Shown here piece by piece: positions 10,334 through 30,307 of a stretch of 64,000 nucleotides of DNA. Positions within the stretch are counted from its first letter, which is position 1. Every line of letters begins with the position of its first letter. The position numbers and the translations under genes were made by a program. A model generated the notes under the pieces. That model saw only the letters and a list, made by a program, of their open reading frames with translations, had not been told where the DNA came from and ran no database searches. Source of the stretch: Olivibacter sp. XZL3 (GTDB taxonomy: Bacteria > Bacteroidota > Bacteroidia > Sphingobacteriales > Sphingobacteriaceae); the NCBI RefSeq assembly GCF_004368405.1, contig NZ_SBJH01000064.1:1-64000 (forward strand). Direction: 5' to 3'.

Positions 10334-10567
10334 CAGGCCGGGGAATGTCCCTTTTTTCTGAAATGTGTATGTTCATCTGCGAAATGTTGTTTTTCAAAAA
10401 TATACATTTTCCTTCCGGAAAGGGTTTGTCTAAAGAACATTAAGAGAAGCCCATCGTACTTGATACGGAACTGGCTTCTGTGAGTAAAAAAATCAGATCT
10501 GGCACTTATCGTCCCTTGGACCAACGCGTTTACGATTCATTGGTGAGCGCACGGGATGAGTCAACGG

Positions 10568-12027: not shown

Positions 12028-12402
12028 TTAATTTCCTATATCCGAATGAGTTAATGTCTTAGCGATTACTTCCCGCAACCTTTCCGAATTCGCATCGCCC
12101 CATTCACCTATAGCACCGATTACAGGGATTAAGCTCTTCCCAAATTCTGTAAGGCTATATTCCACTTTTGGAGGAACCACGGGGTAAATTTTACGGGTGA
12201 CAAGTTCATGCTGTTCCAGTTCCTTTAACTGAACATTCAAAACCCGACGAGACGCATCAGGTATTTTACGTTGCAATTCACTTGGTCGTTTGTGCCCTTG
12301 CCCGATAAACCAAAGTAGGCGCATCTTCCACTTGCCATATAAGACCTCGCCTATGAGGTCAAGTCCGCAATTTAAGTTCGGTGTTGTTTTCCGTTCATAC
12401 AT
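12028..12402 (-). CDS. HxlR-family transcriptional regulator (copy 1)
   Basis: A 124-residue winged-helix regulator of the HxlR/DUF24 family. It shows CGLDLIGEVLYGKWKMRLLWFI with the conserved Cys near residue 12, the recognition region RPSELQRKIPDASRRVLNVQLKELEQHELV, and the wing VPPKVEYSLTEFGKSLIPVI. Such proteins often sense electrophiles or oxidants through the Cys and control an adjacent oxidoreductase. It diverges from the SDR operon at 12526. On the minus strand a TAACTTTG -7-like box (12407-12414) lies only 4 nt before the ATG, which suggests a very short leader. Confidence 0.92.
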   Translation of the reverse strand: MYERKTTPNLNCGLDLIGEVLYGKWKMRLLWFIGQGHKRPSELQRKIPDASRRVLNVQLKELEQHELVTRKIYPVVPPKVEYSLTEFGKSLIPVIGAIGEWGDANSERLREVIAKTLTHSDIGN

Positions 12403-16904: not shown

Positions 16905-17269
16905 ATGTATCAAGAGATTGATTTTTTTATGATCAAAACAAAAAGCGAATCAGGGCAGTTCACGATGCAATGGATGTGTTGAGCGGTAAATGGAAAATAG
17001 CCATTATCTCCTCTATCTGCTATTACAATAAAAGGAGGTTTTCTGATATCTTAAATGATGTGGGGGGAATCTCCAACAAAATGTTAAGCAAGGAATTAAA
17101 AGAATTGGAAATCAACCGGTTGGTTAAAAGAACTGTTTTAGATACGCAACCGGTAATTGTTCAGTACCAGCTTACCGAATACGGACTCACGTTAAAGAGT
17201 ATAATTGATAACCTGGCAGATTGGGGAACAGTCGGGCCCTTGGCAATTCGGCTACCAAACCGAGCTTGA
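16905..17269 (+). pseudogene. HxlR-family regulator (copy 2), frameshifted near the N-terminus
   Basis: The winged-helix body is clear from 16970: MDVLSGKWKIAIISSI, RRFSDILNDVGGISNKMLSKELKELEINRLV and the wing IVQYQLTEYGLTL. The upstream in-frame sequence (FFYDQNKKRIRAVHDA) is also family-like but has no start codon and is closed by TGA. An ATG at 16905 reads MYQEIDFF and runs into the same sequence if one T is added to the T7 tract at 16922-16928. The gene therefore appears to have lost one T, or the assembly has. Starting at ATG 16970 would omit helix 1. Downstream, convergent, lies the molybdenum dehydrogenase operon, so its target is not obvious. Confidence 0.7.
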
Positions 17270-25404: not shown

Positions 25405-26085
25405 CTAAAGGTATGGACGTGCTATTTCGTCTGCCCGTGTCAAGTTCACCTCGCGCTTACTTATGTCGGCGTTTTGCAAAGCGGACTCTAAGGCGTCTTT
25501 GTCGAGATCCTGACAATAGGCCGGTTCCCCGGGTTGCTGCCTCCAAGATTCAGACAGTGAGCCGGCGTCGATGGCGTCAAAGCCGATCTGTTCAATAAGG
25601 CTCGTGACTACTCGCTTTTCCCGCTCGTCATTTCCGGCAACCGATAGCGCAATGCGATTCGGGCTTCCTGGAGGAACAGCCTTCGAAGCTAAGCTTAATG
25701 CAACAATATTGTTAAAAGCTTTAATTACAGAATGGCCAAGTACTTTGCCTACCCATTCGCTATCTGTTAGTCCGCCACTGATATCCGTATTTTGTCCATC
25801 GCGGGAAGGATAGTAATTACCTGCATCAATGATGACCGCCCTAGAGGCCGATAGTATTTTTATAGGGAGAGTCGGTATCGCTTTCTCTGGGGTCGCGAGG
25901 ATGACGATGTCTTTAGCACCAGCCGCTACTTCTGTGGTCACAGGAGTAGCGGCTGTTTTCTCTGCAATTTCGCCTAATGATTCCGGGCCTCTGGAATTAG
26001 CAATGGCAACCTGATGTCCAAGCTTTGTCAAATGTCCGGCTAGTGTACTACCTATATTGCCGGAGCCTATTATTCCGATATTCAT
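25405..26085 (-). CDS. NADPH-dependent F420 reductase-like / NADP oxidoreductase
   Basis: A 226-residue Rossmann protein of the NADP oxidoreductase, coenzyme F420-dependent family. The dinucleotide motif GIIGSGNIGSTLAGHLTKLGH (GxGxxG) is at the N-terminus, with ANSRGPESL contacting the phosphate of NADP. VILATPEKAI, VIIDAGNYYPSRDG, VIKAFNNI and the C-terminal IDAGSLSESWRQQPG follow the family. Bacteroidota generally do not make F420, so the true hydride acceptor is uncertain. It lies 49 nt downstream of the broken monooxygenase gene on the same strand, so these probably form one unit. Confidence 0.88.
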   Translation of the reverse strand: MNIGIIGSGNIGSTLAGHLTKLGHQVAIANSRGPESLGEIAEKTAATPVTTEVAAGAKDIVILATPEKAIPTLPIKILSASRAVIIDAGNYYPSRDGQNTDISGGLTDSEWVGKVLGHSVIKAFNNIVALSLASKAVPPGSPNRIALSVAGNDEREKRVVTSLIEQIGFDAIDAGSLSESWRQQPGEPAYCQDLDKDALESALQNADISKREVNLTRADEIARPYL

Positions 26086-26134: not shown

Positions 26135-27265
26135 TCATTTTATTTTCCTAAAAGCCGGCTTGGGTAACTCCAAGTGGCCCCTTAACGTATCGGCTTCATA
26201 CTCTTTGCGGAATATGCCTCGCTCTTGTAATATGGGAACAACCAATTCAATGAAATCCCGCAAACCGTGCGGATGATCCTACCGGAGAATCAACATATCG
26301 ATCGCACCTGCTTCATACCATTGCTGGACTTGGTCGGCAACTTTTTCGGCTGCTCCAAAAAATGCCGGGATTGGAATGCTGCTATTCGGGAGTAAGTTCG
26401 CCAGCTCCAAGTATTTATCGCGCGCTTCCTGCTCAGTCCGGCCTACAATCGGATTTTGCGATTGGGATATGATAAAGTCATCCGGTCGTCTGCCTTTTTC
26501 GATCAGAAGACGCCTTAGTTCATGGGCGATAGCCACCGATTCCTGCAGCGTACTGCCATGGGTAAACACACCGTCTGTATAGCTGGTTGCATGCTCCATA
26601 AAGGTGTAGGAGGTACCGGCAGTATAGAGCACCGGCCGCCCCTGCATGGAACGGCTAATATTTAGGGGGCCTTCAACCGAGAAATATTTACCACTGTAAT
26701 TCACCTTATGCATTTTATAGGGGTTTAAAAATATGCCGCTTCGTTTGTCACGAATAAAGGCATCATCCTCATATGTATCCCATAAACCCAATACGATCTC
26801 CATAAACTCCTTATTCATGGGATATTGGTCGGCTTTCCCCAGATGGCCGCGACTAAAATTCACCATGCCGCCCGGGTTGGAAGTTATGGCATTTAAGGAA
26901 GCACGGCCTTTGCTTATCTTGTCTAACGATAGAATCTGCCGAGCAACGCTATACGGATCGGCATAGGAAGTAGAAACGGTAGCCGATAAACCGATCGTTT
27001 TAGTGTGCATACTCAGGGCCGACATAATTGTAACACCTTCAAACATGCTGAGATAATGCGGAATGTTGCCCGGGCCGACGTGGCTGACATCAACCAAAAA
27101 CAGTGTATCAAATTTGGCTGACTCAGCCAGCTTTGCCTGTTGAATATAAAAATCGATGTTTTCGCTGGCATCCGATGGCATATCGGGATGCTGCCAGCCT
27201 ACATAATTCCAGCCCAGTCCGTCTATATTTGCCGCCAGCTTTAATTTTTTCCTTTTATTGCTCAT
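26135..27265 (-). pseudogene. NtaA/SnaA/DszA-type FMN monooxygenase interrupted by in-frame TAG
   Basis: A luciferase-like flavin monooxygenase of the NtaA/SnaA/SoxA group that would use FMNH2 and O2. From ATG 27265 it reads KLAANIDGLGWNYVGWQHPD, DTLFLVDVSHVGPGNIPHYL, ALSMHTKTIGLSATVSTSYADPY (in pieces), then GRPVLYTAGTS. It stops at TAG 26279-26281 after DMLILR. In the same frame the sequence continues DHPHGLRDFIELVVPILQER, GIFRKEYEADTLRGHLELP and ends at TGA 26135-26137. That is the expected family C-terminus. The frame is otherwise intact over 377 codons. It begins 1 nt after the neighbouring LLM gene stop. Confidence 0.8.
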
Positions 27266-27266
27266 C

Positions 27267-28295
27267 CTAAAGGGCGATTTGACTTTTCTCTTCATTGATG
27301 TCGTCCATCACCTCTTTAAAAAGTTTGATGGACTTAATACGATCTTCCACCTGATATGTAATAGTCACGGTGATAAGTTCATCCACTTGTGTGAGTTCTA
27401 TAAACTCTTTTATCTGCCTTTTCACCGTTTGCTTACTTCCTACAAAAGAGTACTTGAGCATTTGTGCCAAGGTGGGATGCTTTAACGCAGCCCGTAATTC
27501 GGAGGTCAAGGTAGTAGACGGCTGGACCCCTTCATGCACACCGGTCAGTACGCCGAAAAACATCCGAATGTGCGTTGTGAACAACCTTTCTGCTTCTTCA
27601 TCTGTATCAGCAACATAGATATTCGCCCCTGCTATGGTGTAAGGACTTTCCAAAAATTTGGAAGGTTGAAACTCCTGTTCGTAAATGCGCAAAGCATTAT
27701 GCAAATGAGTGGACGCAAAATGACTCGCAAAAGCATAAGGTAAGCCTAATTGCGCCGCAATATGCGCTCCATCGGTGCTCGACCCTAAAATGTAGAGCGG
27801 AACCTTCCGACCTTCCGCAACGGTGGCTCTAACTTTCGCCATTTTATTTTCTGTCGAAAAATACCGTTGGATTTTTCCAATTTCAATTGGAAAAGAATGC
27901 GCTGCCTCCATAAAATCAGAGCGAATGGCACGGGCAGTTTCATGATCGGTGCCAGGCGCTCGGCCGAGTCCGAGATCAATGCGGTCGGGGTACAAATGAG
28001 CCAAGGTGCCAAATTGCTCAGCAATGATCAAAGGCGAATGATTGGGAAGCATAATACCGCCCGACCCGACCCTAATTTTGAAAGTATTTTCGGCTATATA
28101 TCCAATAAGCAGCGAAGTTGCGCTACTACCTATGAATTCAGCATTATGATGTTCGGCGAGCCAAAAACGTTTGTAATTAAGGCTTTCCGCCTGCTTGGCT
28201 ACTTCCAAGGAATCGCTTAGCGTCTGTTTAATGGTTCCGTCTTTGGGAACATTGGCCAATTCCAAAATAGAATAAGCTATATCTTGATTTTTCAT
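27267..28295 (-). CDS. LLM-class flavin-dependent oxidoreductase
   Basis: A 342-residue luciferase-like monooxygenase (alkanal/MsnO8-like group) using reduced FMN. Typical segments are YSILELANVPKDGTIKQTLSDS, KRFWLAEHHNAEFIGSSA, GGIMLPNHSPLIIAEQFGTLAHLYPDRIDLGLGRAPG (seen as RIDLGLGRAPGTD) and VPLYILGSSTDGAHIAAQLG. ATG 28295 is chosen over an upstream ATG at 28337, because homology begins at KNQDIAYS and the upstream one falls beside the operator. A minus-strand TAACTTTG (28322-28329) is a good -7 element, and an HxlR-type palindrome covers its -33 region. It heads the operon with the broken monooxygenase and the F420-type reductase. Confidence 0.9.
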   Translation of the reverse strand: MKNQDIAYSILELANVPKDGTIKQTLSDSLEVAKQAESLNYKRFWLAEHHNAEFIGSSATSLLIGYIAENTFKIRVGSGGIMLPNHSPLIIAEQFGTLAHLYPDRIDLGLGRAPGTDHETARAIRSDFMEAAHSFPIEIGKIQRYFSTENKMAKVRATVAEGRKVPLYILGSSTDGAHIAAQLGLPYAFASHFASTHLHNALRIYEQEFQPSKFLESPYTIAGANIYVADTDEEAERLFTTHIRMFFGVLTGVHEGVQPSTTLTSELRAALKHPTLAQMLKYSFVGSKQTVKRQIKEFIELTQVDELITVTITYQVEDRIKSIKLFKEVMDDINEEKSQIAL

Positions 28296-28339
28296 TTCTT
28301 GTATTTTCAGAAAGATTCTTGCAAAGTTAAGGCACACGA

Positions 28340-28374
28340 ACTTTCTTTTGTATAGTACTTTCCCAAAAGAAAGT
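28340..28374. promoter_or_regulatory. HxlR-type operator, site 1 (perfect 11-bp palindromic arms)
   Basis: ACTTTCTTTTG (28340-28350) and CAAAAGAAAGT (28364-28374) are exact inverted arms around a 13-nt spacer. The site lies just upstream of the -7 box for the LLM oxidoreductase operon. A bound dimer would block that promoter. An almost identical site lies at 28447-28481. Confidence 0.65.
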
Positions 28375-28446
28375 AAAAAAGATGGAATAATGACCCTATA
28401 TGGACATATGTCTGTTAAGGAATCATTTGCAAACTCAGGATAAAAG

Positions 28447-28481
28447 ACTTTCCTTTGTATAGTTCTTACCTAAAAGAAAGT
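28447..28481. promoter_or_regulatory. HxlR-type operator, site 2
   Basis: ACTTTCCTTTG (28447-28457) and TAAAAGAAAGT (28471-28481) have the same 11/13/11 geometry as site 1, and the spacers are alike (TATAGTnCTTnCC). It ends 16 nt before the HxlR start codon, which suggests autoregulation together with control of the divergent operon. The centres are 107 bp apart, close to ten helical turns. Confidence 0.65.
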
Positions 28482-28497
28482 TCATTCAATAAAGGAT

Positions 28498-28863
28498 ATG
28501 GCTGTAAAAAAAGAGTATTGCGATTGTCTGAATACGGTGAAGCCTGTACGGGATGCACTCGACGTGATTAATGGCAAATGGAAATTGCCGATCATCATTT
28601 CTGTGGGCGTAGGCAATGACCGCTTCACCGATATTCAGGACAGTATTCCCGGTATCACGCCGAAGGTTTTGGCAAAAGAGCTGAAAGATTTGGAACAACA
28701 CCGCCTGATTAAACGACATATTGTAGAAGAATACCCTGTAAAGATTTCATATAAATTGGAACCTTATGCCGACACTTTAACTCCCATCATCTATGCACTG
28801 AAAGATTGGGGACTAAACCACCGCGCAAAAATTCTGGAAAGGGATAAATCAAGTACGGGATAG
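28498..28863 (+). CDS. HxlR-family transcriptional regulator (copy 3)
   Basis: A 121-residue HxlR winged-helix protein. It carries the N-terminal conserved Cys (YCDCLNTVKPVRDALDVINGKWKLPIIISV), the recognition helix region TDIQDSIPGITPKVLAKELKDLEQHRLI and the wing PVKISYKLEPYADTL. The Cys is the usual redox or electrophile sensor in DUF24 proteins such as YodB. It diverges from the flavin-dependent oxidoreductase operon, and the shared 200-bp region holds two near-identical palindromes. It is very likely the repressor of that operon and of itself. Confidence 0.93.
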   Translation: MAVKKEYCDCLNTVKPVRDALDVINGKWKLPIIISVGVGNDRFTDIQDSIPGITPKVLAKELKDLEQHRLIKRHIVEEYPVKISYKLEPYADTLTPIIYALKDWGLNHRAKILERDKSSTG

Positions 28864-29004: not shown

Positions 29005-29335
29005 AGATGTTAAATCCGTTGACATAACTTGCGAAGCCCTAGCCAGCTGAGTCTGTTTCCCAACGAAAACTTCTTCGGCCCTACTTTTTATGAGTGCTAA
29101 TTCTTTCGGATTCAAATAGCCGAATTCCAATAAAAAATCCAATAATCGTTCATATGCGAAAGTTAGGGGTTTCTTTTAATAGGAGCTCCGACCGATATCC
29201 GCGGCGCTTTTAAAAAGAATTGCTCCGGAAGCAGGTAGTCTTACATGGCGTCGACGAGCTATTCGAATGAATTGATCTTTTCACGCACTGCGCCGACAGA
29301 AAATTTGTCAATTTTTCGCCTTTTCATCGTTACAC
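29005..29335 (-). pseudogene. Coding relics on the minus strand, partly Crp/Fnr-like
   Basis: Between the HxlR and GlxA genes the minus strand holds broken frames. One, about 29160 down to 29007, reads TFAYERLLDFLLEFGYLNPK, ELALIKSRAEEVFVGKQTQL and ARASQVM; the latter part resembles the start of a Crp/Fnr cyclic-nucleotide-binding domain. Another, starting at ATG near 29327, reads MKRRKIDKFSVGAVREKINSFE and has stops soon after; I do not recognise it. No intact gene is present in 28864-29329. Confidence 0.35.
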
Positions 29336-30307
29336 CTCATTGGTCACCCTTGCAAACTTATTCCGGTACTCAATTGGCGTAAGCCCTGTGATCTTTTTAA
29401 AAATATCTCTAAATGCCTTCGTATCGGTATAACCTACGTCAAACATGGTTTCAGTTACATTCTTCCTTGATGCTTCGAAAAACTTCTTAGCGGCTTCTAT
29501 TCGGACTCGTTGTATATACTCTACGGCGGTATTGTTGGTCGCTTCTTTAAATTTTCTTTCAAATGTTCTACGGCTGGTGTTAATTAAGTTTGCCAAAGTT
29601 TCTATCGTTATTTTATTGTGATAGTGTTCTTCGATGTAATCCTGTACTTTCTTAATATCATCATCGCGGTGGTTTCTTTGACCCTTAAATATCGCGAACT
29701 GAGATTGACTATCCCTGCCGATATCCAACGCAAAATATTTTGAAATCATTATTGCTGTTTCTCTATCAGCAAACTTTTCAACCAGGTATAATATCAAATT
29801 CCATAAACTGCTTGCCCCGCCGCTACTGTAAATATTATCATGTTCTGTTATGATAGCGCCGTATTCTACTTCTACATTGGGGTACCTCTCTTTAAATTCG
29901 TTAATATGTGCCCAATGCGTCGAGCATTTTTTACCGTTGAGCAAACCCGTTTCAGCTAAAAGGAAAGCACCGATACATAAACTGGCAATGCTTGCACCTT
30001 TCTCGTGCAACTTTTTAAAATAAGGTATGGCTTCTGCATTAGCCTGGACTCCTTTTGCGGTATCGCCGAACACCGGCGGTATGATAAGCAAGTCGGTTTC
30101 GCTCACCTCTTTAAGCAGCCTATTGGTCTTTATTGTGTATTCGCCGTTATTAGCAGGCACATAATCTTTTAAACCTACATACTCAACGTGGAAAATGGGC
30201 GGTTTTCCAAATGCGGTTAAAAACTCATTGGCCGTATTAAAGGTTCTGAATGGCGGTGTAACGGCCTCAATTACCCCATACTCCGGTACAAAAACAGAAA
30301 TTTTCAT
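29330..30307 (-). CDS. GlxA-family transcriptional regulator (DJ-1/PfpI plus AraC HTH)
   Basis: A 325-residue regulator with an N-terminal class I glutamine-amidotransferase-like DJ-1/PfpI domain (about 1-190). Its nucleophile-elbow-type ASLCIGAFLLAETGLLNG motif includes a Cys near residue 112. The C-terminal AraC domain (about 215-318) shows ITIETLANLINTSRRTFERKF and MFDVGYTDTKAFRDIFKKITGLTPIEYR. It diverges from the SRPBCC/DoxX genes across a 141-bp intergenic region, and probably controls them. The amidotransferase-like domain in this family is thought to sense ligands and is usually not catalytic. Confidence 0.93.
   Translation of the reverse strand: MKISVFVPEYGVIEAVTPPFRTFNTANEFLTAFGKPPIFHVEYVGLKDYVPANNGEYTIKTNRLLKEVSETDLLIIPPVFGDTAKGVQANAEAIPYFKKLHEKGASIASLCIGAFLLAETGLLNGKKCSTHWAHINEFKERYPNVEVEYGAIITEHDNIYSSGGASSLWNLILYLVEKFADRETAIMISKYFALDIGRDSQSQFAIFKGQRNHRDDDIKKVQDYIEEHYHNKITIETLANLINTSRRTFERKFKEATNNTAVEYIQRVRIEAAKKFFEASRKNVTETMFDVGYTDTKAFRDIFKKITGLTPIEYRNKFARVTNEV

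Follow-up and report, generated by a model that had tools for sequence, protein, structure and literature searches.

HypR (YybR), YodB, and QsrR, thiol-switch repressors of the DUF24 type, combine cysteine-based sensing with oxidoreductase targets and repression. The founding HxlR of Bacillus subtilis, according to its published description, is a positive regulator of hxlAB that acts from DNA sites as a dimer, and formaldehyde raises its DNA binding (PMC7835342). The same source describes HxlR/DUF24 proteins as dimers and gives a distance of 34.8 Å between the recognition helices in the HxlR-DNA complex (PMC7835342).

We analyzed a window of 64,000 nucleotides from Olivibacter sp. XZL3 (NZ_SBJH01000064.1, positions 1 to 64,000), which belongs to Bacteroidota. 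At 28498-28863 on the plus strand, it encodes a 121-residue HxlR/DUF24 winged-helix regulator with a cysteine at position 10 (hxlR; PF01638, 82.5 bits against a cut-off of 20.8). The best match of this protein among solved structures is B. subtilis HxlR (PDB 7bzd, 7bze, and 7bzg; 1.5e-17), which belongs to the same Pfam family and also has an N-terminal cysteine. Structure matches show that fold and family are also common to HypR, YodB, and QsrR. B. subtilis HxlR carries a formaldehyde-bridged Cys11-Lys13 pair, whereas the formaldehyde-type cysteine and lysine, two residues apart in helix 1, were not found in the window protein, whose group has no general lysine two residues after Cys10. In the 81 proteins compared, six residues occur at position 12 (D, N, E, S, A, and K); the window protein has N, and two proteins have K. 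Cys10 itself is invariant (81 of 81 proteins, the window’s own included), and residues 50-73, which presumably lie around the recognition helix, are nearly invariant in 80 full-length proteins. By analogy, the regulator may sense through the thiol of Cys10.

The neighboring genes differ from hxlAB as well. The leftward operon starts with a luciferase-like monooxygenase (27267-28295, minus strand, ATG at 28295; PF00296, 124.5 bits), overlapped by a second one (26279-27295, minus strand; PF00296, 134.7 bits). An F420-type NADP oxidoreductase (25405-26085, minus strand; PF03807, 63.1 bits) is the probable third gene, and similar gene sets are found at orthologous loci. These are redox enzymes of the flavin/NADP type, whereas hxlAB functions in formaldehyde fixation. 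We scanned 62 of 64 minus-strand neighbors of orthologous hxlR genes (L143 was left out, as was L081, whose distance is negative), counting families that may overlap on one protein. Luciferase-like monooxygenases (24) and F420-type oxidoreductases (22) were followed by nitroreductases (7), short-chain dehydrogenases (6), and a nitronate monooxygenase (1). On the other side, hxlR is followed by a convergent gene for a DJ-1/PfpI and AraC-type regulator (29330-30307, minus strand), with no motif copy nearby. The window contains three HxlR-family genes within 17 kb (12079-12342, minus; 16976-17230, plus; and 28498-28863, plus), the genome has 17 full-length HxlR matches, and of the window’s three genes only the one at 28498-28863 has the 35-bp site described below.

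The gap between the leftward ATG and hxlR contains two 35-nt sites which are 89% identical in a repeat search of the window. Site 1 (28340-28374, plus strand) is the putative HxlR operator for the leftward redox operon, found by the repeat and genome searches with a position-matrix score of 53.2. Site 2 (28447-28481, plus strand) is the putative HxlR operator over the hxlR promoter, with a score of 48.9 and counterparts at orthologous loci. As originally predicted, 16 nt separate the end of site 2 from the hxlR start. Allowing three mismatches, the 35-mer matched twice in the window compared with no match in 100 dinucleotide shuffles. In the whole 5.36-Mb genome it again matched only at sites 1 and 2, and the reversed pattern matched nowhere. 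The original prediction gave both sites an identical geometry of two 11-nt arms around 13 nt. The start-to-start distance of 107 bp and the perfect arms of site 1 agree with it, but the arms of site 2 pair at only 9 of 11 positions in this reading, and the repeat search gives site 2 10-nt arms at 90%.

The original prediction had taken these sites as the HxlR-binding motif and pointed to orthologous promoters as the place to look for it. We fetched the best 80 of 514 matches with an alignment of five orthologues, and a simple finder of ATG-to-stop ORFs identified the left neighbors. The position matrix was built from five seed sites and trained on the same loci, and the main count was repeated with the two 35-mers of the window as the sole query, allowing at most 10 mismatches in 35. 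The matrix once scored 18.6 in the reversed control, so matches under about 19, such as one of 17.7 at 10406 in the window, were ignored. Among the best 80 of 514 loci, 63 carry a site 11-27 nt before hxlR (median 23), of which site 2 is the positional counterpart, and the reversed control gave none in the same 80. The same site precedes the relatives of this HxlR across the phylum Bacteroidota. In a separate search of 100 relatives, the window-derived pattern matched, besides its own two sites, at two places only, both directly preceding hxlR genes 78% and 75% identical to that of the window.

The position of the site varies with the strand of the gene to the left of hxlR. Within the best 80 of 514 loci, the site adjoins hxlR in 63 of the 64 with a minus-strand left neighbor (L143 is the sole exception) and in none of the 16 with a plus-strand one. 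The left neighbor in those 16 loci is, by sequence, a same-strand luciferase-like gene, and hxlR looks like the downstream gene of an operon. The site is found 1.1-2.6 kb upstream in 14 of the 16, one of them marginal (L118, 10 mismatches), and in the operon-type loci examined it separates the operon head from a divergent redox gene. Because the site moves upstream when the neighbor is on the same strand, it tracks the promoter rather than the gene start. Three of the best 80 of 514 loci (L096, L129, and L143) have no site at all.

The site and the regulator occur together in genomes. Among 251 genomes of the bacterial family, with orthologues called at E ≤ 1e-40, the orthologue is present in 19 and the consensus pattern in 16. 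Every one of these 16 also has the orthologue (hypergeometric 1.3e-22, or 1.8e-21 minus the window’s own genome, with kinship ignored in both), and none of the 232 family genomes lacking the orthologue has the site. G190, G255, and G280 have the orthologue and not the pattern. Of the 22 sites found in these genomes, 20 are within 1.5 kb of an orthologue, and for the remaining two (L155 and L160) the orthologue is farther along the same contig, at about 2.4 and 6.2 kb. The 63 of 80 promoters and the 16 of 16 site-bearing genomes with an orthologue back the assignment of the motif to HxlR. Taken as sequence comparison, this strongly supports an operator that is genuine and highly conserved and that belongs to an established type of regulation; the HxlR reading is right and the anatomy requires correction. 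Four genomes of the same genus (G001-G004) have neither the orthologue nor the site while distant genera have both, a patchy distribution which suggests horizontal transfer. In one genome, a second hxlR orthologue is truncated and has two sites, one of them good and the other decayed (L186, G010:C3, about 123573-124167), apparently a decaying copy of the locus.

The consensus from the 63 orthologous sites is ACTTTCCTTTGTATAGTRCTTTCCYAAAGGAAAGT. The 13-bp region between the arms is conserved about as well as the arms themselves and contains a third half-site. The palindrome CTTTCC-N4-GGAAAG has its halves at positions 19-24 and 29-34, and every base pair in it is complementary in 58-63 of the 63 sites. 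A second, weaker one, ACTTTCC-TTT-GTATAGT, has its halves at positions 1-7 and 11-17, with five of seven pairs complementary in 38-63 of 63 and the other two in 3 and 15. The half-sites are at 28340-28346, 28357-28363, and, inverted, 28368-28374 in site 1, and at 28447-28453, 28464-28470, and, inverted, 28475-28481 in site 2. Position 29 is changed from G to A in both window sites, weakening the core there. Half-site centers are 10 bp apart (about 34 Å) in both inner palindromes, and the centers of the outer 11/13/11 arms are 24 bp apart.

We therefore do not favor a single dimer spanning the outer arms; with recognition helices 34.8 Å apart (PMC7835342), 24 bp is too far, making such a dimer unlikely. 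The outer arms as one unit were also rejected because covariation is lacking in the 63 sites. Positions 1 and 35 are paired in 42 of 63 against 40.3 expected (p 0.38), and positions 6 and 30 in 49 of 63 against 47.5 (p 0.23). Positions 2 and 34 gave a p of 0.015 which rests on one sequence; kinship is ignored in all three values. One 11/13/11 palindrome, as in the original prediction, is therefore not the best anatomy. The 10-bp spacing fits the published 34.8 Å and would suit a protein that binds each inverted repeat as a dimer. Together with the outer arms that do not covary, it leads us to infer two dimers per 35-bp site. The consensus most likely reads as two abutting dimer sites, with CTTTCC-N4-GGAAAG as the near-invariant one.

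For the HxlR family at large the two-dimer geometry finds no support, since palindromes of this kind show no excess upstream of the genome's 17 HxlR genes. Perfect 6-bp arms separated by 3-5 bp precede 4 of the 17 compared with 3.1 expected from shuffles, and perfect 7-bp arms precede 1 of the 17 compared with 0.9. A family-wide operator rule was rejected on these numbers. The paralogues L004 (GTTTCC-AAAA-GGAAAC) and L011 (GTATCC-AAAA-GGATAC) are the only two resembling the core, which is a hint, and a similar-looking 35-bp site is seen by eye at L015.

The flavobacterial sigma-A −7 box is TAnnTTTG at −12 to −5 (PMC9723704). Positions 4-11 of the site read TTCCTTTG, one base off this consensus, and the register is kept in orthologues. 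In site 2, this predicted hxlR −7 box (28450-28457, plus strand) lies inside the left half, with a predicted start at about 28462. The predicted −33 box, TTG (28427-28429, plus strand), is 20 bp before it, and a TTG is found at the same spacing in 47 of the 63 orthologous sites. At −16 to −9, the motif CAAAnTTA reads TAAnTTTG on the opposite strand; it is exact in 42 of 63 sites and within one mismatch in 45, compared with 0-2 in the ten other registers tried. The flank TTGCAAAnTTA thus combines the predicted hxlR −33 box with a predicted divergent −7 box on the other strand, and from these two registers it can be shared by promoters that face in opposite directions. The predicted leftward −7 box, TAACTTTG (28322-28329, minus strand), is 10 bp outside site 1, with a predicted start at about 28317. 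Relative to that start, site 1 spans about −23 to −57, in line with its original placement over the −33 region of the oxidoreductase operon. No TTG was found in the window sequence 17-23 bp before this −7 box. A sigma-70 scan, whose promoter type is not that of Bacteroidota, found nothing, and a terminator scan found no terminator-like site.

In a local alignment, about 28300-28382 matches 28409-28495, so that the similarity includes the flanks. The site 1 copy has the perfect leftward box and a spacing one base longer, and the site 2 copy has the consensus rightward spacing and a decayed leftward box, TGAGTTTG. The alignment of the flanks and the complementary retention of boxes point to a duplicated module whose copies may have divided the work.

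We consider it probable that this HxlR is of the thiol type, represses its own gene from site 2, and acts from site 1 on the luciferase-like/F420-type operon, using a duplicated promoter-operator module. Both sites would be operators of the adjacently encoded HxlR, and each 35-bp element, with its three half-sites, would most likely hold two abutting HxlR dimers, one on RCTTTCC-N4-GGAAAGY (positions 18-35) and the other on ACTTTCC-N3-GTATAGT (positions 1-17). The hxlR −7 box at site 2 would then lie under the left dimer and the first transcribed bases under the right one, resulting in autorepression. The site 1 operator most likely blocks the leftward promoter too. DNA binding would be released or altered when an electrophile or oxidant modifies Cys10, and the redox enzymes would be induced. 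In most relatives a single operator would serve both divergent promoters. Here the promoter-operator module would be present twice, with copy 1 keeping the perfect leftward −7 box and copy 2 the rightward consensus spacing. It is also possible, at somewhat below an even chance, that the locus represents a phylum-wide compact cassette in which every element has a dual role and one two-dimer operator serves both genes, here duplicated and with its work divided. The left half-site would then double as the regulator’s −7 box, and TTGCAAAnTTA as the −33 box and the opposite-strand −7 box.

For site 1, repression is a likely sign rather than a firm one, because B. subtilis HxlR, the founding member, acts as an activator. 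HxlR could activate the leftward operon from site 1, as the founding member does for hxlAB, and use site 2 for autorepression. The positive role of the B. subtilis protein and its increased DNA binding with formaldehyde (PMC7835342) are in favor of this. Site 1 is also located upstream of the −7 box predicted for the leftward operon, and the absence of a TTG −33 box at the right spacing would suit an activator-dependent promoter. However, site 1 is only 10 bp from that −7 box, extending over all of the −33 zone, and the Cys11/Lys13 pair is unmatched in this group, with K at position 12 in 2 of 81 proteins. We regard activation as unlikely. Binding by a different regulator is very improbable. 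Such palindromes could suit many transcription factors and we found no specific support for another one, while the site is present in 16 of 19 genomes with the orthologue and 0 of 232 without it, and is found at the operon head instead in loci whose hxlR is a downstream gene. Long inverted arms in two near-identical copies could also belong to a repeat element, a terminator, or a transcribed hairpin instead of an operator. The genome holds just these two copies, no terminator-like site was found, and the predicted starts place site 1 and the left arm of site 2 outside the transcripts of both genes, making this explanation hardly credible.

Cooperative looping over about ten helical turns, with HxlR dimers bridging sites 1 and 2, was part of the original prediction and finds no support here. 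The 107 bp correspond to 10.2 turns at 10.5 bp, and 7 of the 16 operon-type loci likewise have regions with two operators (L071, L076, L078, L079, L085, L087, and L092; the weakest site counted is the left site of L078, 19.3). In these seven pairs, one operator lies near each of two divergent promoters. However, three of them have core dyads 50-51 bp apart, three others 71-72 bp, and the seventh 34 bp, and the second site is inverted, whereas it is direct in the window. All 63 adjacent-type loci among the best 80 of 514 have a single operator, with no second site scoring at least 12 within 500 bp. In addition, the degenerate orthologue copy in G010 has its site and decayed site about 284 bp apart, and HxlR/DUF24 proteins are described as dimers (PMC7835342). 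We consider looping improbable. The helical phase of the pairs (50-51 and 71-72 bp are two turns apart) was not used, since they come from few related genera and the window pair is oriented otherwise. One operator per promoter recurs and a fixed phased distance does not.

Control of each promoter from its own operator can be compared with the arrangement in Pedobacter sp. Leaf170 (L099) and Arcticibacter pallidicorallinus (L101). Their loci have the orthologous regulator, the 35-bp operator, the promoter registers, and a redox neighbor as in the window, but their intergenic region is shorter and contains a single operator for both promoters, where the window has two. The two arrangements offer a natural before-and-after pair for how divergent promoters uncouple. 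The sites define a precise candidate operator for a large HxlR group in Bacteroidota and link the group to flavin-/NADP-type redox enzymes. In open-licence papers on HxlR sites, HxlR with luciferase-like genes, and YodB operators, the motif is undescribed in titles and opening abstracts. Extra motif copies occur near other genes, 379 bp past the hxlR start on the minus strand in L091 and L093, and at +1736 in L097, −3904 in L103, and −1676 in L142. These copies suggest a regulon that may extend beyond the adjacent operon.
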